In this document: one piece after another, positions 12,550 through 41,100 of the stretch
How positions within the stretch are numbered: the first letter of the stretch is position 1
Layout of the letters: the number at the start of each line of letters is the position of its first letter
Assembly (NCBI GenBank): GCA_016927235.1
Contig: JAFGNB010000163.1
Coordinates: 1 to 53,009, forward strand
Source of the DNA: Chitinispirillaceae bacterium
Lineage (GTDB): Bacteria; Fibrobacterota; Chitinivibrionia; Chitinivibrionales; Chitinispirillaceae
Length of the DNA: 53,009 nt
Reading direction: 5' to 3'
The notes under the pieces: generated by a model
Seen by the model: only the letters and a program-made list of their open reading frames with translations
What the model was told of the DNA's origin: nothing
Databases searched by the model: none
Program-made: the position numbers and the translations under genes

Positions 12550-13299
12550 TCAGATCGTCCCGAGCGCCGTTCGTTCCACCCAGCCGCTCACACCGTTGGG
12601 CAGGCTTACCAACGCCCAATCGTTGACGGTTTTTCGGATGCGGAACTTCGTTCCCTCGTGGGCGGTAAAGAGCACGGTGGAGCCCTCAGGTTCGTTTTTC
12701 GCATTAACGGAGGGGACGACGACGATCGCGTAGGCGATCTTTTCCGCCTCATATATTTTCACGCCGATCGACCCGCCCAGCACCGACAGCAGCAGTCCGA
12801 AAAGAATCGAGAGGTAGATAAGCCAGAGCCGCAGATTGCGGGAAGCGAAAAAACTCCAGCCGATACAGAACGAAACGATGCCCAGAAGCGCAAGCGCTAT
12901 CCAGAGCTGCTGTTTCAGTGGAACCACGATGTGCAGTTTCCACAAAACCGTTTCGAGGAACCCGCGCTGCGGCTCTGGCAGCCGGTCGACAATATTCGAC
13001 TGGATGAAACGGATGTTGGCGGCGATGTCGGGGTCGTTCGGGGCGAGGCACGACGCCCGTTCGTAGGCGAGACGCGCCGCTCCCGTCTTATTCAGTCGGT
13101 ACAGCGCGTTGCCGTAATTGTAAAGGACAGCGGCGTTTTCGGTGCCTGATTCGATGATCCGTTCATAATATGCCGCCGCACTGTCGAAGCGGCCTTCGGA
13201 ATAGGCACGGTTGGCCTGCTCGAACCAGTGTTCAACCGGTGCGCCCCGCGCGGCGCTCAGACAGAGCAGTGTAAACAGGCAAATGCGGCAAGCGCTCAT
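12550..13299 (-). CDS. batE: BatE-like TPR/SH3 membrane protein
   Basis: The protein has 249 residues: signal peptide (1-19), TPR repeats (about 24-105; ANRAYSEGRFDSAAAYYERI, YNYGNALYRLNKTGAARLAYERA), two transmembrane helices (about 130-155 and 158-180), and a C-terminal SH3-like domain (about 190-247, ending in NDWALVSLPNGVSGWV). This is the usual BatE layout. It is the last gene of the Bat operon, and its start overlaps batD by 4 bp. Bat proteins are membrane/periplasmic components linked to oxygen tolerance and stress in Bacteroides and Leptospira; the molecular role is not settled. Confidence 0.85.
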   Translation of the reverse strand: MSACRICLFTLLCLSAARGAPVEHWFEQANRAYSEGRFDSAAAYYERIIESGTENAAVLYNYGNALYRLNKTGAARLAYERASCLAPNDPDIAANIRFIQSNIVDRLPEPQRGFLETVLWKLHIVVPLKQQLWIALALLGIVSFCIGWSFFASRNLRLWLIYLSILFGLLLSVLGGSIGVKIYEAEKIAYAIVVVPSVNAKNEPEGSTVLFTAHEGTKFRIRKTVNDWALVSLPNGVSGWVERTALGTI

Positions 13300-15140: not shown

Positions 15141-15912
15141 GCTCCCTGATCCAGGTTACCGTCGTTTCGATCACCGCGACGACATCCGGCACGCGTGAAT
15201 AGTTGTGATCCGCTCCCGGCAACAGGCGGTAGTCGGCGGCAATGGAGGCCTCCTTCGCTGCGGCGACATAGCGGTACGATTCGTCAATGGAAATCGAAGG
15301 GTCGCGGTCGCCGTGAATAAGCAGCATGTTGCCGGAAAACGATGCGACCAACTCCCCTACCGGATCGAACCCGAGCAGCCGGTCGAGGAATAGAAGGCTC
15401 ATTTCATGGGGGCCGTTTTCATAGAAACCTCGGCGGTTGGTGCCCGCTTCGAGAAGCGCCTTGTGTTGCCGCACCAGCCCCTGCGGGTCGCCCACCGGAG
15501 AGAGCAGGATAAGGCCTTCGGCCCCCGTGTCTGCCGCGCAGCGAGCGGCGATCATGCCGCCGAAACTGTGGCCGAAAAGAATAAGGCGGACAGGGGTGAA
15601 GCGCCTGCGCACCTCGGCGGCGACTGCCCTGAGGTCGCGCATCATGGTGTCGGTGTGCATTTCGCTGAAGAGTCCTTCGCTTTCGCCCGCACCGCAGAAG
15701 TCGAAGCGCACCGATGCGATGCCGGCATCGGCGAGCGCGCGTGAGAGTTTGACGAAAAGATACCCGGGACCGAAGCGGTGCCCCGTGAAACCGTGGCAGA
15801 AAATGACACAGGGGGCATCCGGTCGGGCGACTGAATGCAGCGAACCGCGCAGCCGCAGCCCGTTGTCAGTCAGGCATTCGAACGTCGAGAAATAGTCGTC
15901 GCGTGCGCTCAT
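15127..15912 (-). CDS. Alpha/beta-hydrolase (serine hydrolase) inserted in Bat operon
   Basis: The protein has 261 residues from ATG 15912, with AAAAGG upstream; an in-frame TTG at 15921 would overlap batC. The fold signatures are VIFCHGFTGHRFGPGY (oxyanion loop), RFDFCGAGESEG, the nucleophile elbow FGHSFGG, the acid in IHGDRDPSI and the histidine in LPGADHNY, so the Ser-Asp-His triad is complete. It resembles the YqkD/BAAT-like esterase/acyl-transfer group; the substrate is unknown. There is no signal peptide, so it should be cytoplasmic. It sits between batC (2 bp away) and batD (14 bp overlap), clearly within the operon. Confidence 0.85.
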   Translation of the reverse strand: MSARDDYFSTFECLTDNGLRLRGSLHSVARPDAPCVIFCHGFTGHRFGPGYLFVKLSRALADAGIASVRFDFCGAGESEGLFSEMHTDTMMRDLRAVAAEVRRRFTPVRLILFGHSFGGMIAARCAADTGAEGLILLSPVGDPQGLVRQHKALLEAGTNRRGFYENGPHEMSLLFLDRLLGFDPVGELVASFSGNMLLIHGDRDPSISIDESYRYVAAAKEASIAADYRLLPGADHNYSRVPDVVAVIETTVTWIREHVHD

Positions 15913-15914
15913 GG

Positions 15915-16718
15915 CTACCAATCCTTTTCCGGCTGCTGCTGCTTCCCGATACCTTTTTTCGGCGGCCGGTTCAGGGAGTCGGCATCATCGGCATAGAGTT
16001 CGATGATCCGCTTCGCCTCCTCTTTTTTCATATCGGCGGTCTCTTTTTCCTGCGCCGGCTGCTGTTGCTGCTCTTTTTCGTTTTTTTGCGGTTGTTGCGG
16101 TTCCTGGTCCTGCTGTTGCTTGTCCTGTTGTTGTTGGCCGTTTTGCTGATCTTCTTTTTGTTGTTGATCCTGCTGATTTTTCCGGTTGTCGTTATTTGAC
16201 TTGTCCTGCTTGTTTTGCTGCTGTTGTTGCTGCTGTTCCATCCGTTTTATGCGCTGGTGTGCAAGCTGGAGGTTCCATTTGGCGTCATAATCGGAGGGCT
16301 GAAGATCAAGCGACTGAATGTACTGTTCAAGAGCTTTTTTGTACTGTTTCTGCGCTTCCTTGGCCCCCTGACGCTCGAGAGCCTCGCCCTTACGGAAGAG
16401 GATATTTCCCATGTTGTAATGAGCGTTTGCGCGCGCTTTTTTCTCCTTTGCCGACAGCGCCCCTTCATAACTCTGTTCAGCGCTTTCAAGATCGCCGAGC
16501 TGATAGAGTGCCGATCCCTTGTTCATTTTCAGCTTCGGATCGGCAGGGGAGAGCAGTAAAGCGTCTTCGTAAAGCTTGAGCGCTTCTTCGAACTTTCCCT
16601 GCCTGTAGAGACGGTTGGCCGCCTCGGTTTTTGAATATACCTCATCGGCACTGGGCGGGGTGATCATTGACAGGATGAGGAACAAGAGCAGCCGTGCAAT
16701 CAATGCGAATGATTTCAT
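15915..16718 (-). CDS. batC: BatC-like TPR protein with long Gln-rich tail
   Basis: The protein has 267 residues: signal peptide (about 1-24), TPR units (about 28-145; ANRLYRQGKFEEALKLYEDAL, GSALYQLGDLESAEQSYEGAL, NAHYNMGNILFRKGEAL, QYIQSLDLQPSDYDAKWNL), then an extreme Gln/Asn/Lys/Asp-rich stretch (about 155-228) and a short conserved end (KKEEAKRIIELYADDADSLN) ending EKDW. Gln-rich tails with a conserved C-terminus are typical of BatC/BatE-type TPR proteins next to VWA genes. Its start abuts the batB stop. Confidence 0.87.
   Translation of the reverse strand: MKSFALIARLLLFLILSMITPPSADEVYSKTEAANRLYRQGKFEEALKLYEDALLLSPADPKLKMNKGSALYQLGDLESAEQSYEGALSAKEKKARANAHYNMGNILFRKGEALERQGAKEAQKQYKKALEQYIQSLDLQPSDYDAKWNLQLAHQRIKRMEQQQQQQQNKQDKSNNDNRKNQQDQQQKEDQQNGQQQQDKQQQDQEPQQPQKNEKEQQQQPAQEKETADMKKEEAKRIIELYADDADSLNRPPKKGIGKQQQPEKDW
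16040..16245 (-). repeat. Low-complexity Gln-codon tract in batC
   Basis: CAA/CAG-rich imperfect repeats (read on + as ctgctgttgttg-like) encode runs of 4 to 7 Gln mixed with Asn, Asp and Lys. Both CAA and CAG are used, so the tract is not a pure microsatellite. Confidence 0.8.
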
Positions 16719-17741
16719 CTATTCAAACCGTCCTTTCCAGACCTGTTGACGCCGGGTGCGTTCAGGGATGAAAAATTCGATAAGGAGCAGCAGGATCGCT
16801 GCGAACAGGGGAAACTGATACCGTTCCTCATAGGTGGTGATCGCGCTGGCCCCGAGGTCCTTCTTCTCCATGGAGGCGATTGCGCCGACGATGCGCGACA
16901 ATTCGAGGTCCGAGCCCGCATGGAAATAAGCGCCCTTGCCTTCGATGGCGATTTTTTCGAGGATAAGTGGATTGAGTTTCGTCATGACAAGGTTGCCCGA
17001 TTTGTCTTTTTTATACACGATATTGTCGTTGTCGCGTCTGACAGGGATGGGGACGCCGTCTTCGGAACCCACACCGATCGTATAGATGATAATGCCCTCC
17101 TCCTCCGCCTTTTTCGCCGCTGCGAGGGCGTCACCCTCCTGGTCTTCGCCGTCGGTAAGCAGTACGAGCACCTTGTGTTTGCGCGACTGGCTGCGGAACG
17201 CCTCGGTCGAGCGGGCGATCGCGTCGGCAAGCGCGGTGCCCTGACGTTCGACCCATCCGGTCGAGACCGCGTCGAGGAACATCTTCGCCGCTCCGTAGTC
17301 GAGGGTGAGGGGGCATTGTACGAAGCTCTCCCCTGCAAAGACGACGATGCCGATCCGGTCTCCCTTGAGCAGGTCGATCAGCTTGGCGATTTCGTACTTG
17401 GCGCGTTCGATGCGGCTGGGGGTGATGTCTTCGGCGAGCATGCTTTGAGAAATGTCAAGTGCGACGATGAGGTCGATACCCTTCCGTTGCACCATCTCCA
17501 TTTTGACGCCGAAACGGGGTCGCATGAGGGCGACCACCAGAAAGAAAAAGCTGCAGCAGAAAAGCGTCCATTTGGCGATCCGGCGCGAAAGGTCCGACGA
17601 GGGGGTGAGTTTGCCGATAAGATCCAACGAGGCGAAGCGCCGTAGCGCCGCCTTGCGCCGCTGGTACGCCCAGATGAAAAAACCGATGATTACCGGCAGG
17701 AGCAGCCAGAGGAGAAAATACTCGGGATTGCCGAATTTCAT
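16719..17741 (-). CDS. batB: BatB-like von Willebrand factor A membrane protein
   Basis: The protein has 340 residues: N-terminal transmembrane helix (about 8-26), a second (about 57-73), VWA domain (about 87-270), and a C-terminal helix (about 308-328). The MIDAS motif is intact: D96-x-S98-x-S100 in LDISQSM, the later Thr in GTALADA, and Asp in LTDGEDQEG. The shared BatA/BatB signature GDRIGIVVFAG..SFVQCPLTLDY is present. VWA domains bind protein partners through Mg. It lies 10 bp after batA. Confidence 0.92.
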   Translation of the reverse strand: MKFGNPEYFLLWLLLPVIIGFFIWAYQRRKAALRRFASLDLIGKLTPSSDLSRRIAKWTLFCCSFFFLVVALMRPRFGVKMEMVQRKGIDLIVALDISQSMLAEDITPSRIERAKYEIAKLIDLLKGDRIGIVVFAGESFVQCPLTLDYGAAKMFLDAVSTGWVERQGTALADAIARSTEAFRSQSRKHKVLVLLTDGEDQEGDALAAAKKAEEEGIIIYTIGVGSEDGVPIPVRRDNDNIVYKKDKSGNLVMTKLNPLILEKIAIEGKGAYFHAGSDLELSRIVGAIASMEKKDLGASAITTYEERYQFPLFAAILLLLIEFFIPERTRRQQVWKGRFE

Positions 17742-17751
17742 CGTACCCGCC

Positions 17752-18756
17752 TCATGGAATCCTCCTGAATCGCGTATGCTGGAGGAGCAGTTCGGCCGTC
17801 AGGAGCAAAAAACCCGCCCAGAGCCAGGGATAAAACTTCTCCTCGAACGACGTATAGATGGTGGTCTTTATCTCGGTTTTTTCCATGGTATCGATCTGGC
17901 GGTAAATCTCGGCGAGCTTTTCGGCGCTCTGGGCACGGAAAAAGGTGCCGCCGGTCATCTGGGCGATCTCCTGCAGTGTTTTTTCGTCGAGGTCGGAATC
18001 CATCATCTGCACCTGCCGCTTTGTCTCCCCGGTAAAGGGATTCCTCACCGTTACCGGCATGGGGACCCTGCCCTCTTTTCCCACGCCGATCGTATGGACT
18101 TTCAACCCGAGTTCCGCGGCGGCTTTAGCGGCGGTGAGCGGAGGGATGTCGCCCGCATTGTTGGCGCCGTCGGTAAGCAGGACGATTACCCTGCTTTTCG
18201 CCGGTGATTCCTTGAGACGGTTCGCGGCGGTGGCGAGCGCCGTGCCGATCGCCGTCTGATAACTGAAGTCGGTAAAGGCGATATCGTCAATGAACCGGTC
18301 GAGCACATTGTAATCGAGGGTGAGCGGACATTTGGTGAAACTGCGCGCACCGAAGACGACCAGTCCGATCCGGTCGGATGAACGCTTGCGGAGGAAATCC
18401 CGCATGGTTTTTTTCGCGACGGCCAGGCGATTATCGGGCTGGAAATCGAGAGCGCGCATGCTCTCGCTTATGTCAAGCACCATCATGATGTCCACCCCTT
18501 CGGTGGAAACCTCCTCGTCGGAATGCCCCCGTTGCGGGCGGGCGAGCGCGACCACGAGGAGCCCGAAGCCCAGAAGTCTAAGAAACGGGAGCAGATGCCG
18601 GGCGCGTATGAAAAGCGAGGGAGGGGCTGTTTTGACCGCGACGAGGGAGGAAAAACGGATCGCCGGCCTGAAGCGCCGTTCGCGGCGGAGGTAGACAAGA
18701 ATCATCGGAACCCACAGGATAAGCAGAAGGAGGATCCAGGGGTCTTTGAACCTCAT
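17752..18756 (-). CDS. batA: BatA-like von Willebrand factor A membrane protein
   Basis: The protein has 334 residues: transmembrane helices at about 6-22 and 57-72, VWA domain (about 87-275), and a C-terminal helix (about 308-328). The MIDAS motif DISES (D95, S97, S99), GTALATA and LTDGANNAGD are complete. It also has DRIGLVVFGARSFTKCPLTLDY. AAAGGAG lies 7 nt before the ATG, and the start overlaps the previous stop by 4 bp. It pairs with batB directly downstream. Confidence 0.92.
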   Translation of the reverse strand: MRFKDPWILLLLILWVPMILVYLRRERRFRPAIRFSSLVAVKTAPPSLFIRARHLLPFLRLLGFGLLVVALARPQRGHSDEEVSTEGVDIMMVLDISESMRALDFQPDNRLAVAKKTMRDFLRKRSSDRIGLVVFGARSFTKCPLTLDYNVLDRFIDDIAFTDFSYQTAIGTALATAANRLKESPAKSRVIVLLTDGANNAGDIPPLTAAKAAAELGLKVHTIGVGKEGRVPMPVTVRNPFTGETKRQVQMMDSDLDEKTLQEIAQMTGGTFFRAQSAEKLAEIYRQIDTMEKTEIKTTIYTSFEEKFYPWLWAGFLLLTAELLLQHTRFRRIP

Positions 18757-19769
18757 GTCCGCGCTCCTTTTACCGTCGTGCCGGCTGCACCTGTTGCGTG
18801 CCGGTCGTTTGTTGCAGGCCGCTTTTCCGCGGCACCCGGCGTTTGAGCACCCGGTTCGATCGGTTTTGTTGCATCCAGGAAATCACGTACCTCACGTTCA
18901 AAGCGGTCGAGAGTCGGCGTATCGGGTATCCGGCGGGCGAACTTCACCGGATCGGCGGTGCGGAAAAACCATTCGATCGTTGCACGCAGTTTCTTCGGCA
19001 GATCCGCGGCGCCGCTCCAGGCGACCATCTCTTCGGTGGTGTATTCCACGGCATTGCACGCGAAGCGCCGGCCGATGTACCTCTTAAAAATTTCTGAGAG
19101 TTCGAACACATACTCCCTGACAAGCCCGCGTTGAAGATATTTCTTTACGCCGAGGTTTGCAAGCGCTTCGATCGCCTCCTCGTAGGGGGGGACCGGGGGC
19201 GGAGGGGGCGGCGTTTTTCGAAGGCGCCGGTTGAGCCAGATACCGCCGAAGGTTGCAACGCCGGCAATACCCAGCATGGCGATCAGCCACAGCCACCACT
19301 TCGGTGCCTTCCCGGCGGAAAGCGGCGGTTTGAGCCCTATGATATCGACCGTGTCGCTCGGCAGGACCGATATAATCTGAAGCGGTATCGCTTCGGTAAG
19401 CAGCGTGTCGACGCCGCCGTCCTTTTCTATGACAAAAGAGAGCTCCGGGATCGTACACGGCTCGGGGGTATAGGAGGTGATGATATATTCATAGGCGCAG
19501 CTGTCCGATTTTTCCCGTTCGGTGGTATGCCGATTCCACTCCTTGACGGAAAGAGCGCCGAAATCGGCTTCGGGGGCGGGAGGCGTCACGGTCGCCCCCT
19601 TCGCGACAACCGCGCTCACCGTGAACCGTACCCGGTCGCCCACGGAAAATTTCCGGGTGCTGATCGAGGTGGTGAGGATGGAGGCCGGAACCGACACGGC
19701 GCACGCGACGGCAAGCATCAGTGCGGCCTTCGGCAAAATACCCATAAGTAAATATTTCCCCTTATGCAT
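18753..19769 (-). CDS. Bat-operon membrane protein, BatD/DUF4381-like
   Basis: The protein has 338 residues from ATG 19769; ATG 19745, 12 nt after AAGGGG, is an alternative start. It has a signal sequence (about 10-30), an extracytoplasmic beta domain (about 30-155), a transmembrane helix (about 160-178), and a Pro-rich segment (KTPPPPPPVPP). A cytoplasmic helical domain (LQRGLVREYVFELSEIFKRYIGRRF, then EYTTEEMV) resembles the tail of BatD and the DUF4381 proteins found with BatA/B. The C-terminus is a low-complexity tail. It likely takes part in the Bat membrane assembly. Its start overlaps the DUF445 gene by 8 bp. Confidence 0.75.
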   Translation of the reverse strand: MHKGKYLLMGILPKAALMLAVACAVSVPASILTTSISTRKFSVGDRVRFTVSAVVAKGATVTPPAPEADFGALSVKEWNRHTTEREKSDSCAYEYIITSYTPEPCTIPELSFVIEKDGGVDTLLTEAIPLQIISVLPSDTVDIIGLKPPLSAGKAPKWWLWLIAMLGIAGVATFGGIWLNRRLRKTPPPPPPVPPYEEAIEALANLGVKKYLQRGLVREYVFELSEIFKRYIGRRFACNAVEYTTEEMVAWSGAADLPKKLRATIEWFFRTADPVKFARRIPDTPTLDRFEREVRDFLDATKPIEPGAQTPGAAEKRPATNDRHATGAAGTTVKGART

Positions 19770-20376
19770 ACAATTTTCCGACGACGATGATCGCCAACTG
19801 GACGAGGCCGACGATAAAACCAAGGACTCCGCCGAACACCTCGATCGCCTTGAGCTCTTTTGCCGCGATGGCGTAAATGATCGATTCGAGCCGGATCAAG
19901 TCGAACCCGTCGATCTTTTTCCTGATAATGGTACGGAAATCGATCTTCTTTTCGACCGATTCAAACAGTGAGTCGATCAGGCCGGGAATCTCCTTCTGCA
20001 GTTCATCCATCAACATGTCGGTCAGCCTGCCCGAGATTTCAGGCGTCATGAAAAGGGACAACAACGTATTCGCGGCAAACTTTTCTTCAATAAAATCTTC
20101 AATCCGTTTCTTGATAACGCGACCCGTCTGGAGGTGAAAATCATCCGATTGCAGTATCGCACGGATGTCCCGATGCGAAATCAGTTCCTTCTCAATCGTC
20201 TCGGCGATCTTTATTGCCAGGTCTGTTTGGCGCTTTGGAATAAGCCCTATAAACCGGATAAAGAAAAACCGGACCTCTTTACGCGGTCTGAAAATCATTT
20301 TTACCGCAATGTAATTCGTGATCCAGCCGATCAGCGCCGTAATGACCGGTATCGAGCAGTAAATCAGAATGTACAT
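19762..20376 (-). CDS. DUF445-family membrane protein
   Basis: The protein has 204 residues: an N-terminal transmembrane helix (about 3-23) running into ITNYIAVKMIFRPRKEV, the diagnostic DUF445 start, then IPKRQTDLAIKIAETIEKELIS, amphipathic helices, and a C-terminal hydrophobic helix (about 183-203). The function of the family is unknown. It is short relative to many members (about 380 residues), like the YheB-type halves. It is the first gene of the Bat operon, with a promoter at 20403-20431. There is no Shine-Dalgarno sequence before ATG 20376. Confidence 0.82.
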   Translation of the reverse strand: MYILIYCSIPVITALIGWITNYIAVKMIFRPRKEVRFFFIRFIGLIPKRQTDLAIKIAETIEKELISHRDIRAILQSDDFHLQTGRVIKKRIEDFIEEKFAANTLLSLFMTPEISGRLTDMLMDELQKEIPGLIDSLFESVEKKIDFRTIIRKKIDGFDLIRLESIIYAIAAKELKAIEVFGGVLGFIVGLVQLAIIVVGKLYA

Positions 20377-23693: not shown

Positions 23694-26600
23694 GTGAAAA
23701 GAATTCATTGCTCGGCATTGAGGTTCGTGTTCCCGATCATCACGAATCTCGTTTTATACCTGGCTGCCGCTCCGCATAATGGTGATCTGTTCGAGTTGAG
23801 TCAACCCGACGGCTCGACGGTCCCGGTGCTCGTATGGGGTGATGAATTTTATCAGCGTGTCGAGACTCCCGACGGGTACACGCTCGTCCGCAACAAAGAG
23901 ACGGGGTGGATCTGTTACGCCGAGCTCGCTCCCGACTCCTCGGAACTTATTCCAACCGACCGTATCTACCAACCGGGCAAAGGATTATCGAAATCGCTGA
24001 ACACTCCCGGCACTCCGGAAAAAGAACTGCCGCAGCACCTCAAGCTTCGGAGAAGCTCCCGTTTGCGGAAGCATACGGAAATACGGCAACGCCTTCTCGG
24101 CAGCGACGATGAAGCCGGGGGGCCAACCCTTCTCCCCTCCCCGCCTTCCACAGGGGACGATTCCCCGTCGATACTGCCGCTCCAGGGAGTCAAACCGATA
24201 GTCGGCAGTTTTACCGGTCTTACGGTAGTGATCGATTTTTCCGACCAACAGGCAACCGTTCCGATTGATTCAATAAGGGATTTCACCAATAAACGTGATT
24301 ATACCGGTTTTAGAAACAATGGATCGGTGCGGGATTTTTACTTCGATGTTTCCGGCGGGAAGGTCGATTATCAGAATACCGTCGTCGGGTACTATCGCGC
24401 AAAAAATGCGAAGTCTTACTATGACAGCCGTAGCGCATCGTTCGGGACCCGTGCTCAGGAATTGATTCTTGAAGCCCTCCAATGGCTTAAAAATGACGGC
24501 TTCGATTTTTCAACGCTTTCGACCTATACTTCTTCATCAGATGCAACACGGAAGAAAATCAGGGCGATAAATATTTTGTATGCCGGTTCTCCGTCGCAGG
24601 GATGGTCAGAAGGCTTATGGCCGCATATGAGCAGGCTGAGTATCAGAGAATCATATAATGGGGTTTATATCGATAAATATCAGATATCCAATATCGGATC
24701 GTCGCTCAAACTTGGCACCTTCTGCCATGAAAACGGCCACATGCTTTTTAACTGGCCCGATCTTTACGATTACGGCGGGGAATCCGGCGGGGTGGGGGTA
24801 TACTGCCTCATGTGCAATACGGGAACGACCAATCCTATACCACCCTGTGCGTACCTGCGTGATTTGGCAGGCTGGGACGCGGTTACCGATATTACCGATC
24901 TGGCTCAGGGAACCGTTCTGACGCAGCTTCCGGCGAATATCAGCACCACCTTTATGTTCCGGAACAAATCCAATGCGAATGAAATGTTCTATATCGAAGC
25001 CAGACGTCGCATCGGCCGGTTTAAAACGCTTCCGGATTCCGGTTTTATGATATGGCATGTGGACCGGAACGGTTCGAACGATGATGAACAGGGTACCGCC
25101 ACGCGCCATTATCTGGTTTCGCTCGAGCAGGCGGACAATGCTTTCCAACTGGAAAAGAGCATCAACAGCGGAAAGGCAGGCGACCTTTTCCGCAAAGGCT
25201 ACAAAGACCGTTTCAGCGATACCACCAAACCCGACGCCCACTGGTGGAGCGGCTCGAATTCGGGTATGAAAATATTCAACATGAGCGGAGTCGCCGATAC
25301 CATGAGCTTCAGCATCGGGGAAATCGGCGGGACAACCCATACCATCATCGCCTCGGCAGGCGAGCACGGAAGCATCAATCCTTCGGGGAAAATCTCGGCA
25401 GTGGCAGGGAGCTCGCTTAATTTCGCGGTAAAGCCCGACAGCGGCTACCAGATCGACGCGATTACGATTGACGGGGCTTCGGCAGCCCTCGTCGATACGG
25501 TGCATCTGGAAAATATTAGCGGCGATCACAACATTTCGGTGGTTTTCGGAATCAAGGGGGCGCTTGGAATCATTTCCCCGCAAAAGGGGGATGTTTTTTA
25601 CGCGGGAGATACGACATCGATCAAATGGCGCACGCGCGGGGTGACGGTGGAAGGGATTGATGTGTCGTACAGCATCGACGGAGGAAAGTCGTTCACGGTG
25701 ATCAAATCCGGTATCAGCTCGGCCGACTCGGTTCTCCTGTGGGCGGTCCCGCTCGTCCAGAGCGACAGCTGCATGATAAAGGTCGCCGATATTGACGGGA
25801 ATCCCGCGGCGAGCTCGGGGATGTTCTTTATCAAGAAAAAACCGTCGATTGCGGTCGCCGCCGCTCAGATCACGCTCACCGTCGAGCAGGGAAAGAGCGT
25901 GCAGCAGACCTTTTCGATTGAAAACAAGGGGACCGGCGACCTTCGCGTTACCGCTACCACCACCCGGCAGATCGATAAAGTCCTGATCAACGAGATTGCC
26001 GTCGGTTCGTCGCCGGTGCCCGACGCCATCGAACTTTTTAATACCGGCGTCGATATCGATCTGAGCGGCTGGCAACTGCTTTGGGACGACAATAATTCGA
26101 CGTCGGGAAGCTACACCTTTCCGAAAGGATTTATCTTCAAAGGGGGAACGGCGTTTCTGATCACCGACGATATGAGTGATACGGGCGCTGTTTCTGCATA
26201 TATCGGATTGAATGTCCAATGGCTCATCAGTAACACGTTCATTCTTGCGGTGACGCTTCTCGACGCCACGGGCCTGGGAGTTGATTTTGTAAAATCAACC
26301 AGCAGCCCTGTCGTAGCGCCGGAGGGAACGCAGTGGAGGGGAAACGGCGTCGAATTGAGCAAGGCGTATATCGCCCGTGTCGGATTCAATGATCAGGATT
26401 CGGCGTCCGACTGGGTGTGCACCGACGAGGGATCCCTCAAGCGTAACAATGCCACACAGCAGGTGTCGACGGTCCCGCCGCTGATGGCGGCGACGCCGCT
26501 GGCCGCAGCCGTTGCGGGCGGCGGTACGGCGGCCTTGACCCTCACTCTTGACGCGACCGCTATGGAAGCGGGCAGTTATACCGATACGCTGGTTATCTAC

Positions 26601-27017
26601 CATAACGATCCGGCGAAGCCGTCGCCGTTGCGCATCCCCTGCACGATCGGCGTTGTAGCACCGTCGAAGGTATTCGCCCGGCGGGCGAGCGACGAACGGC
26701 AACCGATACCTGGCACGTTGATCGCCGCTCCCAACCCGGTACCTCCGGGGGAGAGGGTCTTTTTTCAATATCAACCCGAGGGCGACGAACGCGGCGGGGA
26801 GCTGGTGATTTACAACAGCGTGGGGGATTGTCTGTATAGCGATGAAATCGACTTTTCACGGGTGACTGTTTTCAATAAACAGCCGCTGCTTTTTTCCTGG
26901 CTGCCGGTGAGCAACAGCGGGAAAGCCTACCGCCGGGGCACCTGTCTCGTGCGGCTGACCGTAAGGAAAACCGACGGATCGCGGGTTTTATTCTCCACGA
27001 AGGTGGGGCTGCAGTAG
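23694..27017 (+). CDS. Secreted M6-family metalloprotease with lamin-tail and C-terminal sorting-like domain
   Basis: The protein has 1107 residues. GTG 23694 is the start (AGGGAG 5 nt upstream; the overlapping ATG at 23692 is followed at once by a stop). After a signal peptide comes the M6 propeptide motif QPDGSTVPVLVWGDEFYQRVETPDGYTL. The catalytic domain (about 165-530) has zinc motif HENGH (345-349) followed by MLFNWPDLYDY, and a WHVD motif. Next is a Bacterial-Ig-like repeat (about 550-620), a region with WAVP..QSDSCMIKV (about 625-705), and a lamin-tail domain (about 765-890; LINEIAVG..PDAIELFN..DIDLSGW). An Ig-like segment and a C-terminal module starting AAPNPVPPGERVFF follow, resembling FlgD/type IX sorting domains. 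It is a predicted secreted endopeptidase of the immune-inhibitor-A kind. Confidence 0.92.
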   Translation: MKRIHCSALRFVFPIITNLVLYLAAAPHNGDLFELSQPDGSTVPVLVWGDEFYQRVETPDGYTLVRNKETGWICYAELAPDSSELIPTDRIYQPGKGLSKSLNTPGTPEKELPQHLKLRRSSRLRKHTEIRQRLLGSDDEAGGPTLLPSPPSTGDDSPSILPLQGVKPIVGSFTGLTVVIDFSDQQATVPIDSIRDFTNKRDYTGFRNNGSVRDFYFDVSGGKVDYQNTVVGYYRAKNAKSYYDSRSASFGTRAQELILEALQWLKNDGFDFSTLSTYTSSSDATRKKIRAINILYAGSPSQGWSEGLWPHMSRLSIRESYNGVYIDKYQISNIGSSLKLGTFCHENGHMLFNWPDLYDYGGESGGVGVYCLMCNTGTTNPIPPCAYLRDLAGWDAVTDITDLAQGTVLTQLPANISTTFMFRNKSNANEMFYIEARRRIGRFKTLPDSGFMIWHVDRNGSNDDEQGTATRHYLVSLEQADNAFQLEKSINSGKAGDLFRKGYKDRFSDTTKPDAHWWSGSNSGMKIFNMSGVADTMSFSIGEIGGTTHTIIASAGEHGSINPSGKISAVAGSSLNFAVKPDSGYQIDAITIDGASAALVDTVHLENISGDHNISVVFGIKGALGIISPQKGDVFYAGDTTSIKWRTRGVTVEGIDVSYSIDGGKSFTVIKSGISSADSVLLWAVPLVQSDSCMIKVADIDGNPAASSGMFFIKKKPSIAVAAAQITLTVEQGKSVQQTFSIENKGTGDLRVTATTTRQIDKVLINEIAVGSSPVPDAIELFNTGVDIDLSGWQLLWDDNNSTSGSYTFPKGFIFKGGTAFLITDDMSDTGAVSAYIGLNVQWLISNTFILAVTLLDATGLGVDFVKSTSSPVVAPEGTQWRGNGVELSKAYIARVGFNDQDSASDWVCTDEGSLKRNNATQQVSTVPPLMAATPLAAAVAGGGTAALTLTLDATAMEAGSYTDTLVIYHNDPAKPSPLRIPCTIGVVAPSKVFARRASDERQPIPGTLIAAPNPVPPGERVFFQYQPEGDERGGELVIYNSVGDCLYSDEIDFSRVTVFNKQPLLFSWLPVSNSGKAYRRGTCLVRLTVRKTDGSRVLFSTKVGLQ

Positions 27018-33489: not shown

Positions 33490-34688
33490 ATCTTTTTTCC
33501 GAGATAGTCGGCCACCGTAAAAATGTCCTTGTCGCCGCGGCCCGAGAGATTGATGACCATGATATCGTTCCGCGGCCGTTTCGGCGCCTCTTTGACTGCA
33601 TACGCTACGGCATGCGCCGATTCGAGCGCCGGGATGATGCCTTCACATTCGCATAAGAGCGAAAATGCCTCCACCGCCTCCCTGTCGGTAGCGTAGGTAT
33701 AACGTACCCGTCCGGTCTTGTAAAGAAAGGAGTGTTGCGGCCCCACGCCGCTGTAATCGAGCCCGGCACTGATCGAGTGAGTGTTTGCAATCTGGCCGTT
33801 GCGGTCCTGGAGCACGTAGGAGTAAGATCCGTGGAGTATGCCCGGCCGCGAGTTGGGAGTAGGGGAGAGTCGCGTTGCGTGCTTGCCGCTGTTAAGACCA
33901 AGACCCCCCGCCTCGACGCCAACAAGCTTCACTGTTTTGTCACGTAAAAATGCATCGAATATACCGATGGCATTCGAACCGCCTCCTACGCAGGCGACAA
34001 TGAAATCAGGCAGGCGCCCCTCTGCCGCAAAAAGCTGCTTTTTCGTTTCACGGCCGATAACTGATTGAAATGTGCGGACGATCGTCGGGAAGGGGTGCGC
34101 GCCCAGAGCAGACCCGAAAATGTAGTGGGTATATCGCACGGTTGCCGTCCAGTCCCGCAGCGCCTCATTGACCGCATCCTTGAGCGTTTTGCCCCCGCCG
34201 TCGACCGGAATAACACGGGTGCCGAGAAGGTCCATCCGAAAAACATTGGGACGTTGGCGCGCCATGTCGATGGTCCCCATATAAATGTCGCACTTCATGC
34301 CGAGCAGCGCCGCCGCCGTCGCAACGGCGACGCCGTGCTGCCCGGCGCCGGTTTCGGCGATAAGCCGTGTTTTTCCCATGTATTTTGCCAGGATCGCCTG
34401 TCCCAGCGCATTGGTGATTTTATGGGCGCCGGTATGGTTGAGGTCTTCGCGCTTGAGATAAATACGGCACCCGCCCAGGTGCGCGGAAAGACCCCGCGCG
34501 AAATAGAGCGGTGTGGGACGGCCGTTGTACGTTTTCAGAAGTTCCCTGAACTCCCGTTGCAGCAGGGGGTCTTTCTGAAAAGCGGCGAATGCCCGTTCAA
34601 CCTCTGCAAGTGCAGGCATGAGGGTTTCGGGGACATAGGCGCCGCCGAAGCGTCCGAAATATCCCGGTGTCCGTTTTTTCCTTTTCAT
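33486..34688 (-). CDS. trpB: Tryptophan synthase beta chain
   Basis: The protein has 400 residues, TrpB1 type. It condenses indole with serine using PLP. PLP lysine K90 is in [15 protein letters not shown]; also present are [57 protein letters not shown] and ESAHAVAY. Its start overlaps the signal-peptidase-like gene by 4 bp and it overlaps trpA by 4 bp, which fits equimolar, coupled synthesis of the alpha/beta complex. Confidence 0.98.
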
Positions 34689-35650
34689 GACACGAATCTT
34701 CCCAGGCGTTTAAACCGAAACCGCCATTTTCCCTGTTCGTCGTTGCCGTGCGACCAGAGCACCATAATTGCCCTGCCGATGCAACAGGACCTACGTACGG
34801 GGCCGAAATAACGCGAGTCGAGGCCCGTCGTGCGGTTATCGGCGAGCATGAAAAAATAGCTGTCCTTCACCCGGTACTCCTCGATGACCGTATTGTCAAG
34901 TGAAAGCGAGAAGTCAAGCGTCACTTTTCGGTCGTCATGCTTTTGATACAGGTATTCTTCGAGGCGGTTCCAGAAAAACCAGTTGTCTCGCAACGAGTCG
35001 GGAACCGAGTCGATATGTCCGCTGTAAAAAGCAAAATCGTTTATAATATAATCATTGCTGAGGGAATCATCTAACAGGACGGAGGGGTTGACGGTAACGC
35101 GGCGTTTCGGGTGTTCCTGTTGAATAACCGACCGGGCGAAAAAGAAGTCCCGCAGAGTGAGTCTGTCGAGAAGGAGCAGGTCGCCTGCGGCAGGAATACG
35201 GTACGGCGCGAAAAAATCCTGCGGCGAGTAGGATTCGGGAACCACCTCGACCGGTTGTTGCCGATGAAAAACGGTGATCCGAGAGCCACTTCGTGAAGTG
35301 ACGACAACACCGCTGTCGATACGGAGCGTATCCCTGCCGGATGCGGCTACCCGCAGAAGGCCGAGCGCACCGGAGGTTGACGGAATTTTGTAAACGACCG
35401 GTCGGTCGTAAGGCGGTTTGAGAAAATGCCGTACCGGCGGGAGAAAGGGGGTGCGAAGCATGAGCACGCGGTCTCCCCTGATGATGGTGGGCGACATCTG
35501 GTCTCCCGCAACCTTGACCGTGTCGACAAACGATACCTTGACGACGCAGGCGATTGCCGCCGTGATAATGAGCGCCAGCGTCGCGCGGTAGACCGTCACC
35601 CGCACGTCAAAACGGGGATTAAAGGATGTTTTTGACAAAAGATTATTCAC
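34685..35650 (-). CDS. Signal peptidase I-like membrane protein without the Ser/Lys dyad
   Basis: The protein has 321 residues from GTG 35650 (GGAG about 10 nt upstream); the same frame stays open further upstream inside lepA, which is ignored. It has one N-terminal transmembrane helix (about 21-41), then S26-family boxes in order: box B as [16 protein letters not shown] (49-64), box C PVVYKI, box D as [15 protein letters not shown] (97-111), a roughly 150-residue insertion, and box E as [14 protein letters not shown] (270-283). The nucleophilic Ser of box B is Gln51 (codon 35500-35498), and the general-base Lys of box D is Leu99 (codon 35356-35354). Fold and topology point to LepB, but it should be unable to act by the known mechanism. 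Position after lepA mirrors the classic lepA-lepB pair. Confidence 0.82.
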
Positions 35651-35694
35651 GTTTCGCCGTCTCCGCTGCGGGAAGCAGTCATTGTAGCTGGGCG

Positions 35695-37491
35695 TCACTC
35701 GCGGCTGAGCGCTGCGAGAAAAGCCTCCTGCGGTATTTCGATGTTGCCGACCTGTTTCATCCGTTTTTTTCCCTCCTTCTGCTTTTCGAGCAGTTTGCGC
35801 TTGCGCGTAATGTCGCCTCCGTAGCATTTCGACGTGACATCCTTGCGGAATGCCTTGACGGTTGAACGGGCGATGACCTTGTTGCCGACGGCGGCCTGGA
35901 TGGCGACCTCGAACTGCTGTCGCGGAATGAGTTTCTTGAGTTTCGAGGTGATTTCCTGGCCGAAGTGGTACGTGTTGTCGCGATGGACGATCGACGAGAA
36001 GGCGTCGACCTGTGTGCCGTTGATCAGGATGTCGAGCTTGACCAGATTTTCCTTTTCGTACCCGTCGAACTCGTAATCCATCGACGCGTACCCCCGCGAG
36101 CAGCTCTTGAGCTTGTCGAAAAAATCGATAATGATTTCCGAGAGGGGGATACGGTAGTGCAGGCAGACGCGGGTGGGCTCGAGGTATTCCATGGTGCCCA
36201 TCTTCCCCCGCTTCTCCTCGCAGAGCTTCATGATCGCTCCCACATACTCGGCGGGAGTGATGATCTGCAGCGTGGTGACGGGTTCGCTTATGCACTCGAT
36301 ATCCTGCTGCGGCGGCATATGCGTCGGACTTTCGATGTACCGTTCGTCGCCGTTTTTCAGCCGGATATAGTACTTGACGTTAGGAATTGTGGTGATGATG
36401 TTGACGTCGAATTCGCGATACAGCCGCTCTTGGACGATCTCCATGTGCAGCAACCCCAGGAAACCGGCGCGGAACCCGAACCCCAGCGCCGACGACGTTT
36501 CCGGCACGTAGCTGATCGACGAGTCGTTGAGTTGCAGCTTGTCGAGCGCCGAGCGCAGGTCTTCGTAATCGGCTTTGTCGACCGGGTAGATGCCGCTGAA
36601 GACCATGGGCTTTACTTCCCGGTATCCGGCCACCGCGTCCCGCGTGCCGCCGAGCCGCGTGGTGACGGTGTCGCCTATTTTGATGTCGGAAACCGTACGG
36701 ATATTGGCGATCATGTACCCCACTTCCCCTGCCTCAAGCGTTTCGAGCGGAACGCGTCCCATCCTGAAAAAACCGATCTCATCAACATTGTAGTTGGTAC
36801 CGGTGGATAAGAATGTAATCGCATCTCCCCTGTGTATTGTTCCATCGAAAATACGTACATAGGCGATTGCGCCGCGGAAGGGATCGAATTTCGAATCGAA
36901 AATGAGGGCCTTGAGCGCCGCAGCGGCATCTCCCTTCGGCGGCGGGACATCACTGAGCACCCGTTCAAGGATCGACGCTACGCCTTCGCCGGTTTTTGCG
37001 CTGCAGGTGATTATGGTCATCGGATCGATACCGAGGAGGTCCGCTACCTGGCGCCGGACCTCTTCCGGACGGGCCGAAGGAAGATCGACCTTGTTGAGCA
37101 CGGGTATGATCGAGAGATTGTTGTCGAGAGCAAGGAAGATATTGGTCAGGGTTTGCGCCTCGATTCCCTGTGCGGCGTCGACCACGAGGATCGCTCCTTC
37201 GCAGGCGGCGAGCGAACGGGAGACTTCATATGAAAAATCGACATGCCCCGGCGTATCGATCAGGTTGAACTCATACGCTTTTCCGCCCTGCGCCACATAT
37301 TGCATGCGGATTGGGTGCGATTTGATGGTGATTCCCCGCTCACGCTCAAGGTCCATATCATCGAGGATTTGTGACTGCATCTTTTCTTTACTTATCGTGC
37401 CGGTCAGCTCCAGAAACCGGTCGGCGAGCGTCGATTTCCCGTGATCGATATGGGCAATAATGCAGAAATTGCGTATAAAATCTCTCTCCAC
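35695..37491 (-). CDS. lepA: Elongation factor 4 (LepA), ribosomal back-translocase GTPase
   Basis: The protein has 598 residues, the standard length. It starts at GTG with GGGAG 4-5 nt upstream. GTPase motifs: AHIDHGKST (G1), DTPGHVDFSYEVSRSL (G3) and NKVDLPSARPEEV (G4). The LepA-specific C-terminal domain ends with VGNKVIARSTVKAFRKDVTSKCYGGDITRKRKLLEKQKEGKKRMKQ-type sequence. It acts on ribosomes, probably during initiation/elongation under stress. It is the first gene of the lepA to recN operon. Confidence 0.98.
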   Translation of the reverse strand: MERDFIRNFCIIAHIDHGKSTLADRFLELTGTISKEKMQSQILDDMDLERERGITIKSHPIRMQYVAQGGKAYEFNLIDTPGHVDFSYEVSRSLAACEGAILVVDAAQGIEAQTLTNIFLALDNNLSIIPVLNKVDLPSARPEEVRRQVADLLGIDPMTIITCSAKTGEGVASILERVLSDVPPPKGDAAAALKALIFDSKFDPFRGAIAYVRIFDGTIHRGDAITFLSTGTNYNVDEIGFFRMGRVPLETLEAGEVGYMIANIRTVSDIKIGDTVTTRLGGTRDAVAGYREVKPMVFSGIYPVDKADYEDLRSALDKLQLNDSSISYVPETSSALGFGFRAGFLGLLHMEIVQERLYREFDVNIITTIPNVKYYIRLKNGDERYIESPTHMPPQQDIECISEPVTTLQIITPAEYVGAIMKLCEEKRGKMGTMEYLEPTRVCLHYRIPLSEIIIDFFDKLKSCSRGYASMDYEFDGYEKENLVKLDILINGTQVDAFSSIVHRDNTYHFGQEITSKLKKLIPRQQFEVAIQAAVGNKVIARSTVKAFRKDVTSKCYGGDITRKRKLLEKQKEGKKRMKQVGNIEIPQEAFLAALSRE

Positions 37492-37637: not shown

Positions 37638-38297
37638 TTACAGCACCACCGGCTGGAGGATTTTTTCACTTTCATAGAGCCTGCGCGCCGCCGCGGTGGC
37701 GAGGGCGCCGATAAAGAGCAGCGCCAGCGGCAGGATGAACGGCGGCACGGTGAAATAGTATGATACGACGAAATGCAGCGTCACCAGGAGCCCCAGCAGC
37801 AGCAGATTGGCAAGATGCAGCAGACGCGGATTTCCCATGCGCACCGAGAGGTAGGCGCTGCAGGCGGTATTCATGAACACCGCCGCGCAGTAGAGAAGAA
37901 GCGTTTCGCCGGTGAGCGTAGAGGCCGCTTCCTTGTAAAGCGCCAGCCGCCAGAGGGGCGTAACCGCCGCGCAGAACAGGCCGATGCCGACGCTCATTCC
38001 GAACACGAAGAGCATCTTTCCATAAAGGATGTCCCTGCGCGACAACCCGGAGGTCAGCAGGATCTCGAGTATCCCGTTGACCCGTTCTGCGATGAATACC
38101 GTATTGGAGAAATTTGCCGAAATGACCACCGAGAAGAAAACGAGCCAGAGGGGTCCGGCCTGCACGGTAGTATTGGAAGGAGCGGCGAGCATGAGGCTCC
38201 ACGAAACGATTAAAACAGCATAGATGATGAAGATGCCCCGGTCCGATCCGATGAAGCAGCGCCACTCTTTACGCAGGATAGTGAGGATGCCGCTCAC
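37638..38297 (-). CDS. ABC transporter permease (ABC-2 type)
   Basis: The protein has 219 residues. GTG 38297, preceded by AAGGAGG, is the start; the frame continues upstream only as an antisense-like extension in the ATPase gene. Six hydrophobic helices can be seen. The N-terminal ILRKEWRCFIGSDRGIFIIYAVLIVSW and RVNGILEILLTSGLSRRDILYGKMLFV are typical of ABC-2 exporters (E-loop and conserved coupling region). The substrate is unknown. Its start overlaps the ATPase stop by 4 bp, so the two form one transporter. Confidence 0.85.
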   Translation of the reverse strand: MSGILTILRKEWRCFIGSDRGIFIIYAVLIVSWSLMLAAPSNTTVQAGPLWLVFFSVVISANFSNTVFIAERVNGILEILLTSGLSRRDILYGKMLFVFGMSVGIGLFCAAVTPLWRLALYKEAASTLTGETLLLYCAAVFMNTACSAYLSVRMGNPRLLHLANLLLLGLLVTLHFVVSYYFTVPPFILPLALLFIGALATAAARRLYESEKILQPVVL

Positions 38298-39214
38298 GGC
38301 GCCTCCTTCGGCTGCCGGCCCGCATAGAGCGTCCTGATCGCCGAGCCGAAATCGCCTTCCTCCCGCCGAACCTCCCTGAGGGCGCATCCCGCGGCTACGA
38401 GTGCGCCGATGATGCGGGGGATGTTCGTCGCCGCGTCGGCGAGCGTGAAGTGCCACCCCCGCTCGAACCGCACGGAGGCACCTCCGGCGCGCGCCAGCAC
38501 ATCGCTGACTGCCGGAGAGTCGTCGGTATCGATATACCACGACGTATCGGCGGTGCGGCCGGCGCGGTCGATCTCCGTCAGCATCCCATTGCGAAGAATG
38601 CCCACCCGGTCGCAGAGCTCGTCGATGGTATCGAGCTGATGGGAGCTGATGATAAGGGCTGCGCCGCGCTCCCGGGCCTTACGGACGAGCAGCTTGAAGT
38701 GGTCGTAGGCATGAAGGTCGAGCGCGACCGCCGGTTCGTCGAGGAAATAGACCGATGCTTTACCGATGAATGCCCTGCAGAGCGCGCATTGCATCCGCTG
38801 GCCGCGGGATAAGTGTTTCACCTTTTTATTACCCGCAAAAAGGGCGCTGCCGTTCCAGAAAACGGCAAGGTATTCGGCAAGCTCCTGCCGGGGCACACCC
38901 TGTGCGGAAGCGTAAATGGCGCAGTTCTCCTCCGCCGTCAGGTTGCCCCAGAAGCCGTCGCTTTCAAGAACGACACCGCACTGGCGGTAGAAATGAGGGT
39001 CATGGTGCCACGGGGTGCTCTCCAGGACACGTACCGTGCCACGGTCGGGTTGCAGGATGCCGAGCAGCAGTCGCAGGAGTGTGGTTTTCCCCGCCCCGTT
39101 CAGACCCACAAGTCCATAGATGCTGCCCGCTTCAACCTGCAGCGACAGCGAATCGATGATACGGTATTTGCCGAATGATTTTGAAAGGTTTGTTGCGAAG
39201 ATAGCCGGTGTCAT
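38294..39214 (-). CDS. ABC transporter ATP-binding protein
   Basis: The protein has 306 residues with Walker A GLNGAGKT (37-44), the signature LSRGQRMQ, Walker B VYFLDEPAVALD and the H-loop SSHQLD. A C-terminal extension of about 90 residues is a regulatory domain common in ABC-2 exporters of the NatA/CcmA/YadG type. It is coupled to the permease. No clear Shine-Dalgarno precedes ATG 39214. It diverges from the ispH-ubiA fusion gene over 110 bp. Confidence 0.92.
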   Translation of the reverse strand: MTPAIFATNLSKSFGKYRIIDSLSLQVEAGSIYGLVGLNGAGKTTLLRLLLGILQPDRGTVRVLESTPWHHDPHFYRQCGVVLESDGFWGNLTAEENCAIYASAQGVPRQELAEYLAVFWNGSALFAGNKKVKHLSRGQRMQCALCRAFIGKASVYFLDEPAVALDLHAYDHFKLLVRKARERGAALIISSHQLDTIDELCDRVGILRNGMLTEIDRAGRTADTSWYIDTDDSPAVSDVLARAGGASVRFERGWHFTLADAATNIPRIIGALVAAGCALREVRREEGDFGSAIRTLYAGRQPKEAP

Positions 39215-39324: not shown

Positions 39325-41100
39325 ATGAAAATAATTACCGCGAAAACCGCCGGATTCTGCATGGGTGTCAAACGCGCCGTTGATCTGGCGCTCGAGTATG
39401 CTTCGCGGTCGGAAGAAGGCGTGTTCACACTCGGGCCGCTCATCCACAATCAGCAGACGCTCGAAATGCTCAAACAGCGGGGAGTCGTCGAACTCGCCGG
39501 CGAAGAAAGACTCTCGGCGCGGTCGAAACTCCTCATACGTGCACACGGGATCGCACCGCAGATGCAGGAACAGTATTCCAGCGGCGGGCATGAAATCATC
39601 GACGGCACCTGTCCTAAAGTAAAGACCGTCCACAAGGTGATCGAACGGTATCGGCGGGAGGGATATCGGATCGTCATCGCCGGCGATGAGGGGCATCCGG
39701 AGGTGATCGGGCTGCTCGGTTACGCGGGCCATGGCGGGATGCTCATCCACACCGTTGAGGAGGTGAAACGGCTCCCCGATTGCCCGAAGGTGTGCCTCGT
39801 CTCGCAGACGACCTTCGATCGGTCGCTTTTCGACGAGATAGCGGCGAAAGTCAAGGAACGCTTTGCGGCCGCCGAAGACGTCGTGGTGAAAAAGACCATT
39901 TGTTCAGCGACCGATCAGCGCCAGACCGAGGTGGCGACACTTGCGCGCCAGGTTGATGCGCTGATCGTCGTGGGAGGGAAAAACAGCGCCAATACGCGGC
40001 GATTGGCGAAAATAGCCGGTGAAAACGGAACTCCGGTCCAGTTGGTGGAGACCGAACGGGAAATCGTCTGGGAAAAGATCGCCGACTGCAGGACGGTCGG
40101 GATCAGCGCCGGGGCCTCGACGCCCAACTGGATGATCAAGCGGGTGGAAGATTACCTCAATTTCATGGACCAGACCAGAACACGCGGCGTTCCGAACCTT
40201 ATTTGGCATATGCTTGATATATGTGCAAATCTCAATTGTTTCGTGGCACTCGGTGCGGCGAGCGCGTACTATGCTTCAAGTTTTCTGCTCGGGCTTCCCT
40301 TTACCGGCGGAGGCGCGGTCGTCGCGTTCCTCTATTTTCTTTCGATGTATCTCTGGAACAGTATGGCCAGCATCGAGTCGATGCAGCACCACGGCATCTC
40401 GCGGTACCGCTTCTACCTCGCGTACCGGCCTCAGCTTATTCTGATGTCGGGGGTCAGCATTCTGGCACTGCTTTTTGTGGGTTTTATTATCAAGAAAGAA
40501 CTCGGCTATCTGATGTTTTTTGCCTCACTGGCCGGTTCAGCCTACCATATGACGTTCATGCCGAGACGCGTCAGGGCGCTTTTCCGGTATAGAAATCTTA
40601 AGGATATCCCCAGTTCACGGGACCTGTTCGTCGCTCTCGCCTGGGGAACGGTCCTTACGGCGATTCCGTATCTGATTCATGATGCACCGATCGATTTTCC
40701 GGTCGCCCCTGCCGTGTTCTGCTGGATCTTTATCCTTGCCTTTCTGCGGTCGCTCATTTTCGATCTGCGCGACATAGAGGGCGACCGGATCATGGGGCGC
40801 GAAACACTCATTACGATCGTCGGCGAGAGGCGGGCCCGCAAGGCGTTGCAGGTCTTGATCATCAGTTGTTTCTTTGCCCTTCTGCTTTTTCCGGCATTCC
40901 TCGGTATTCACGCCTACCGCAGACAGAACACCGTAAGGTTTCTTTTCCAGATCCCCGTCCTGCTCTACCTGTTGGCATTTGTACAGATAAATCCGCACAT
41001 CAGGCAGAACCGAAATGCGCTGTTTAACCTTCTTGCCGACGGACTTTTTTTCCTGGCGGGATTGGGTGCATTTCTAGCGTCGTTCGTGATTCCCGAATAA
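39325..41100 (+). CDS. ispH: IspH (HMBPP reductase) fused to a UbiA-like prenyltransferase membrane domain
   Basis: The protein has 591 residues. Residues 1-280 are a complete IspH: 4Fe-4S cysteines C12 (GFCMGV), C96 (DGTCPKV) and C193 (KTICSATDQRQ), HPEV with E126, SQTTFD, and SAGASTPNWMI. It reduces HMBPP to IPP and DMAPP at the end of the MEP pathway. After a short linker (281-295), residues 296-590 form about eight hydrophobic helices with the UbiA second aspartate motif FDLRDIEGD (479-487; D480, D483, D487) followed by GRETLITIVG. The first motif, normally NDxxDxxxD, reads NSMASIES (345-352) and lacks the acidic residues. So IspH looks active, whereas the prenyltransferase half may not be. 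No stop or frameshift lies between the two halves. Confidence 0.88.
   Translation: MKIITAKTAGFCMGVKRAVDLALEYASRSEEGVFTLGPLIHNQQTLEMLKQRGVVELAGEERLSARSKLLIRAHGIAPQMQEQYSSGGHEIIDGTCPKVKTVHKVIERYRREGYRIVIAGDEGHPEVIGLLGYAGHGGMLIHTVEEVKRLPDCPKVCLVSQTTFDRSLFDEIAAKVKERFAAAEDVVVKKTICSATDQRQTEVATLARQVDALIVVGGKNSANTRRLAKIAGENGTPVQLVETEREIVWEKIADCRTVGISAGASTPNWMIKRVEDYLNFMDQTRTRGVPNLIWHMLDICANLNCFVALGAASAYYASSFLLGLPFTGGGAVVAFLYFLSMYLWNSMASIESMQHHGISRYRFYLAYRPQLILMSGVSILALLFVGFIIKKELGYLMFFASLAGSAYHMTFMPRRVRALFRYRNLKDIPSSRDLFVALAWGTVLTAIPYLIHDAPIDFPVAPAVFCWIFILAFLRSLIFDLRDIEGDRIMGRETLITIVGERRARKALQVLIISCFFALLLFPAFLGIHAYRRQNTVRFLFQIPVLLYLLAFVQINPHIRQNRNALFNLLADGLFFLAGLGAFLASFVIPE

Follow-up and report, generated by a model that had tools for sequence, protein, structure and literature searches.

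An IspH-UbiA fusion in Chitinispirillaceae joins an apparently intact reductase to a predicted UbiA-fold membrane domain with a degenerate first aspartate motif

Why would IspH, the last enzyme of the MEP pathway, be built as one polypeptide with a membrane domain of the prenyltransferase type whose first aspartate motif is degenerate? The question is raised by a gene in a stretch of 53,009 nucleotides from a Chitinispirillaceae bacterium of the Fibrobacterota (contig JAFGNB010000163.1), referred to here as the window, in which a single open frame with an ATG start (39325-41100, + strand) encodes 591 amino acids plus stop. The reading favoured here, to which a probability of roughly 0.45 is given, is that of a membrane-tethered IspH in which the pocket of the UbiA-fold domain would bind an isoprenoid (di)phosphate and, being non-catalytic or of altered chemistry, would position or tune the reductase.

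Fusions of this kind have been described before. Rao et al. reported 47 IspH-UbiA sequences, mainly from Desulfobacterales, and all of the hosts were said to be sulfate-reducing bacteria (Rao et al., 2015, Chem Sci; PMC4746011). The UbiA domain of these proteins was described as carrying 'two DXXXD repeats' and its function as unknown; it was proposed that the domain puts IspH at the membrane and consumes its products, with prenyltransferase activity favoured (PMC4746011). The channelling or anchoring role suggested in the first-pass annotation was thus already in print. Expression of the fusion led to largely truncated, insoluble protein, and a separate UbiA/MenA was also reported (PMC4746011). 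Except for one citation, no later literature on the IspH-UbiA fusion was found.

The fusion architecture is therefore already published and the window protein is a further member, with IspH at the N-terminus and, in the same frame, a UbiA-like domain of about nine membrane helices at the C-terminus. The published set has two DXXXD repeats whereas the window protein has only the second, and the group is defined by its architecture and not by the motif. The hosts of the published set were all said to be sulfate reducers, whereas those found here also include Fibrobacterota and several further phyla. A C-terminal extension of IspH is likewise found in the IspH-RPS1 fusion of Clostridia and others, the IspH part of which was reported to be active, but there the partner consists of ribosomal protein S1 repeats with no membrane domain.

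The reductase half (aa 3-278; 39331-40158, + strand) matches PF02401 LYTB with an E-value of 6e-88 and 295 bits against a curated score of 24.5, as well as TIGR00216 with 281 bits, above the cut-off of 187.85, and Foldseek places it with solved IspH structures (E 4e-21). Its best score was obtained with NF000907 (IspH-RPS1), a match spanning the IspH half only. The three ligands of the [4Fe-4S] cluster, Cys12 (39358-39360), Cys96 (39610-39612) and Cys193 (39901-39903), are invariant in 43 fused sequences from several phyla, as are His41, His74, His124, Glu126, Thr163, Ser221, Asn223 and Ser265, and all 43 of these sequences match both the IspH and the UbiA families. With every catalytic residue present, the reductase half appears intact and is predicted to convert HMBPP to IPP and DMAPP, in line with the first-pass annotation, which had proposed an intact reductase.

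A mainly helical linker in the model (aa 279-304; 40159-40236) leads to the membrane domain (aa 305-588; 40237-41088), both on the + strand. The match of this domain to PF01040 (aa 315-552) reached 32.1 bits with the whole protein, narrowly missing the gathering score (34.2), and 35.7 bits in the search of its own genome when adjacent in-frame matches were included. An AlphaFold2 model built with the 43 fused sequences (mean pLDDT 88.7, pTM 0.79) consists of the IspH domain and nine long helices. The UbiA half was matched by Foldseek to the archaeal UbiA structures 4od4, 4tq3 and 4tq4 (probability 1.00, TM-score by target about 0.6), and the UBIAD1-HMGCR structure 8djk was also returned. The model thus predicts a UbiA-superfamily fold with nine membrane helices, of which the positively charged loop 407-430, together with the N-terminal IspH domain, would be expected on the cytoplasmic side.

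Direct sequence-profile alignment to a solved UbiA structure gave partial matches only, and so the first aspartate motif was placed through a profile alignment with canonical UbiA proteins (probability 98.8%). At the position of NDxxDxxxD the window protein has N345-S-M-A-S349-I-E-S-M353 (aa 345-353; 40357-40383), with N345 on the Asn and S346, S349 and M353 on the three Asp. The second motif, D480LRDIEGD487 (40762-40785), is intact, with D483 and D487 aligned to the second DxxxD of canonical UbiA. The earlier reading of a degenerate first and a retained second motif is thus borne out. A weaker direct alignment with AfUbiA puts Tyr407 (40543-40545) on Tyr139 and D483/D487 on D198/D202. Furthermore, K426, which opens the segment K426-D-I-P-S-S431 (40600-40617), is aligned with a Lys of canonical UbiA and is probably the equivalent of AfUbiA Lys146. 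The alignments gave no counterpart for Arg22 of AfUbiA. Compared with UbiA prenyltransferases (AfUbiA 4tq3/4tq4, ApUbiA 4od4, MenA and DGGGP synthase), the domain shares the common fold and the equivalents of Asn68, Tyr139, D198/D202 and probably Lys146, but it differs from them in having other residues in place of the Asp of NDxxDxxxD, in its GRET and P-x-S signatures and in being fused to IspH.

How far these features belong to the family was examined in 124 distinct fused sequences. None contains NDxxDxxxD. Asn345 is kept in 111, and an acid at +4, the position of AfUbiA D72, occurs in 73 and is missing in 51; it is Ser in the window protein, as in 20 of 26 Fibrobacterota fusions, the others having Cys, Asn, His or Val. 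Six of the 124 have Asp at +4 as well as at +8, and the window protein has neither. The degenerate first motif thus characterises the fused family as a whole and is nothing special to the window protein; the part of the change that is specific to its lineage is the loss of the +4 Asp only. In the second motif, position 480 is acidic in 120/124 and position 483 in 98/124 (missing in 26/124), and D487 is kept in 122/124. Other polar positions are close to invariant, namely Tyr407 (123/124), Lys/Arg426 (115/124), Ser431 (123/124) and Arg475 (121/124), followed by the GRETL loop (aa 491-495; 40795-40809) with its Gly in 123/124, Glu493 in 121/124 and Thr494 in 122/124. Glu493 can be read from these counts as a signature of the fused family.

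Two candidates for compensation were considered and set aside. Glu351 (+6) as a substitute ligand is not claimed, since it is common among the Fibrobacterota fusions yet some of them have Lys or Ala at this position. A compensating relation between the two aspartate motifs was suggested by raw counts, in which only 2/124 sequences lack an acid at 349 and at 483 alike, against about 11 expected if the two were independent, but the independent changes on the tree are too few to support it.

The fusion has been found far more widely than was reported in 2015, with the fused domain in at least six phylum-level groups. It recurs throughout the genus, the family and the order of the window. In the order, 30 whole loci have it at full length and in the same frame (that of the window and 29 more, whose identity to the window protein is 87-49%), and in two more genomes of the order it is interrupted by contig ends. 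The family of the window also includes three genomes (88%, 91% and 68% complete) that were without the fusion, one of them showing a weak fragment only. When GTDB genomes were scanned using the UbiA domain, 57 loci were returned, almost all fused to IspH, from Fibrobacterota, Raymondbacteria, Desulfobacterota, Zixibacteria, Glassbacteria/Gemmatimonadota, Planctomycetota and Muiribacteriota. Of 198 evenly drawn Desulfobacterota genomes, 78, or two in five, had the domain, and the frame begins with IspH in 69 of the 70 Desulfobacterota loci examined, the remaining one being a 579-aa frame outside the pattern used. Two separate genes joined through a sequencing or assembly error, which would have undone the first-pass annotation, is an explanation for which no support was found; it is refuted by the recurrence of the same-frame fusion in independent assemblies of the order, of Desulfobacterota and of several other phyla, and its probability is negligible.

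In most hosts checked, the fused gene is also the only IspH found. No separate ispH was found in the window genome, a MAG of 4.15 Mb that is 86.75% complete and in which a second copy could be missed, and ispG is present, so that the fused IspH must do the job. Separate UbiA genes do occur: eight other UbiA-family genes were found in the genome, including a MenA-like gene and one above the cut-off for decaprenyl-phosphate phosphoribosyltransferase. Near the MenA-like gene (L005, G000:C75), a polyprenyl diphosphate synthase-like frame was also seen by eye. Among ten other fusion genomes, the fused gene is the sole ispH in nine. The tenth, Planctomycetota G066 (L071), has two ispH genes, both in frames of 581-584 aa, apparently either two fusions or a mixed bin.

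Unfused IspH is found instead in one family of the order (f7) and in families f8 and f11 of the phylum, at about 30% identity except in the f7 genome G034, where the unfused protein (L044, G034:C10, about 61824-62648 of the contig) is 46% identical to the window protein and, in the tree, clusters with the Fibrobacterota fusions (SH-aLRT 95, on a long branch). Loss of the UbiA domain with retention of IspH is the best reading of this case and a probable one, and the coupling is then not indispensable.

The UbiA half could also be an inert membrane anchor, holding IspH for example close to its electron donor. The erosion of the metal site and the order-mate that has IspH without a UbiA domain are both consistent with such a role. 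When the window protein is compared with that of its nearest species, however, the UbiA half has a dN/dS of 0.09, against 0.16 in the IspH half, and residues 338-360 are free of replacements. Purifying selection therefore acts on the UbiA half, which is at least as strongly constrained as IspH between near relatives and is no decaying passenger. This constraint, together with polar pocket residues that are near-invariant across phyla and that an anchor would not need, argues against an inert anchor, which is regarded as unlikely.

Ordinary prenyl transfer is made less attractive by the history of the metal ligands. At least 11 changes at position 349 (the +4 acid) and at least seven at 483 were counted on trees that come from quick searches and have several rows on long branches, and such repeated loss of metal ligands argues against ordinary prenyl transfer. 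The nearest unfused relatives found of the fused domain, which are standalone UbiA proteins in some genomes of the same order (L203, L206-L210), form their own clade, whose position with respect to the fused domains is ambiguous in the tree. Five of the six have N-R-x-x-D, and D-x-R-D-x-x-x-D is present in every one; since these relatives keep the metal motifs, motif decay accompanies fusion.

If the domain were instead an active enzyme whose metal site has changed, either a prenyltransferase or one resembling the UbiA-type terpene synthases, it would use DMAPP/IPP or longer diphosphates made nearby. Strong purifying selection, the retention in most members of the D-x-x-D-x-x-x-D of motif 2 and the kept equivalents of AfUbiA Asn68, Tyr139 and Asp202 are all in keeping with catalysis, and a prenyltransferase was the preference of Rao et al. 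(PMC4746011). Fungal UbiA-type terpene synthases (Fma-TC, EriG and Tps1A) are active without the +4 Asp, with motif I NXXX(G/A)XXXD and motif II QDXXDXXXD (PMC9835599), and their second motif has three Asp as in the window protein. Motif I of the form N-xxx-G-xxx-D is shared by four Desulfobacterota fusions (L049, L062, L127 and L142); taken with the activity of the terpene synthases, this leaves room for catalysis in the fused family.

The likeness to the terpene synthases is one of motif descriptions only, and these enzymes are fungal, have no IspH fusion and keep the +8 Asp, which is absent in the window protein. Motif I of the window protein is N-xxx-S-xxx-M and so departs from NXXX(G/A)XXXD, and mutation of the motif-I Asp in Tps1A (D100A) gives an inactive enzyme (PMC9835599). 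Motif II of the window protein, FDLRDIEGD, has the three Asp and lacks the Gln of QDXXDXXXD; D-x-x-D-x-x-x-D is also found in ordinary UbiA proteins of the window genome and is thus no marker of a terpene synthase. Moreover, a consistent family-wide set of metal ligands is absent, the +4 acid, the +8 acid and D483 each being lost in many members. An active enzyme is possible on this evidence but less likely than the favoured reading, and it ranks ahead of the inert anchor.

Under the favoured reading of a membrane-tethered IspH, the fusion gene would encode the cell's working IspH, which the UbiA-fold domain would keep permanently on the cytoplasmic side of the membrane, and IPP and DMAPP would be produced by the IspH half as usual. 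The prenyltransferase pocket is kept (motif 1 Asn, Tyr, Lys, the last Asp of motif 2 and the GRET loop) with an incomplete set of Mg2+ ligands, and most likely the domain would bind a lipid or an isoprenoid (di)phosphate but would not carry out prenyl transfer of the ordinary kind. The bound domain could then dock IspH where prenyl diphosphates are used, or let the membrane isoprenoid pool act on IspH. The membrane location of IspH, the binding of a ligand and the lack of ordinary transferase activity are all inferred.

The step from motif to ligand is where the first-pass suggestion, that prenyl diphosphate may be bound without normal catalysis, holds up only in part. The step from a lost motif 1 to binding without catalysis is insecure in either direction. 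In AfUbiA, where N68, D72, D198 and D202 are Mg2+ ligands, binding of GPP is abolished by N68A, D72A, R22A and K146A and weakened by D198A and D202A, and the MenA equivalents of N68, D72, D198, D202 and Tyr139 are required for function (PMC4106721). As D72A removes GPP binding itself, S349 may mean that prenyl diphosphate is not bound in the usual mode (PMC4106721), and the fungal terpene synthases with NXXX(G/A)XXXD show activity with an altered first motif (PMC9835599).

A sensory role can be proposed by analogy with UBIAD1, which has been described as a GGPP sensor (PMC9314443) and which, as a UbiA-fold membrane protein tied in mammals to the rate-limiting isoprenoid enzyme HMG-CoA reductase, resembles the window fusion. 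In that role the UbiA half would be a pseudo-prenyltransferase, and IspH would be adjusted according to the pool of prenyl diphosphates that it senses in the membrane. UBIAD1 and HMG-CoA reductase are separate proteins, the enzyme and the pathway are different, and UBIAD1 keeps NxxxD (N102TYYD) and DMESD. This more specific proposal is considered rather improbable, but if true it would mean that a feedback sensor is built into the last MEP enzyme in many bacterial lineages. The survey limits the possible functions of the UbiA half, as the domain occurs in at least six phylum-level groups with its pocket kept and its metal ligands lost repeatedly. The choice between enzyme, sensor and anchor thereby becomes testable with few point changes and, as most hosts checked yielded no IspH other than the fused one, the role of the domain bears on an essential pathway.

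No universal operon partner that might hint at a substrate was found, and the neighbours of the fusion vary by lineage. An ABC transporter ATPase and a probable permease (37638-39214, - strand) lie divergent from the fusion gene in the window, and ten further Fibrobacterota loci have homologues of the permease close to the fusion. Translations viewed by eye in Desulfobacterota loci (for example, L068, L077 and L081) include tRNA-dihydrouridine synthase-like, glycosyltransferase-like and plsY-like genes near the fusion. Further along the window, a Bat aerotolerance-like cluster with BatA-/BatB-like von Willebrand proteins and TPR proteins (12553-19823, - strand) and a large protein with an M6-family metalloprotease domain (23694-27014, + strand) are encoded. 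The ORF listed at 34685-36295 (- strand) overlaps a lepA-like frame (35695-37491) out of frame, and the true gene inside it is probably shorter and encodes a signal peptidase (S26).
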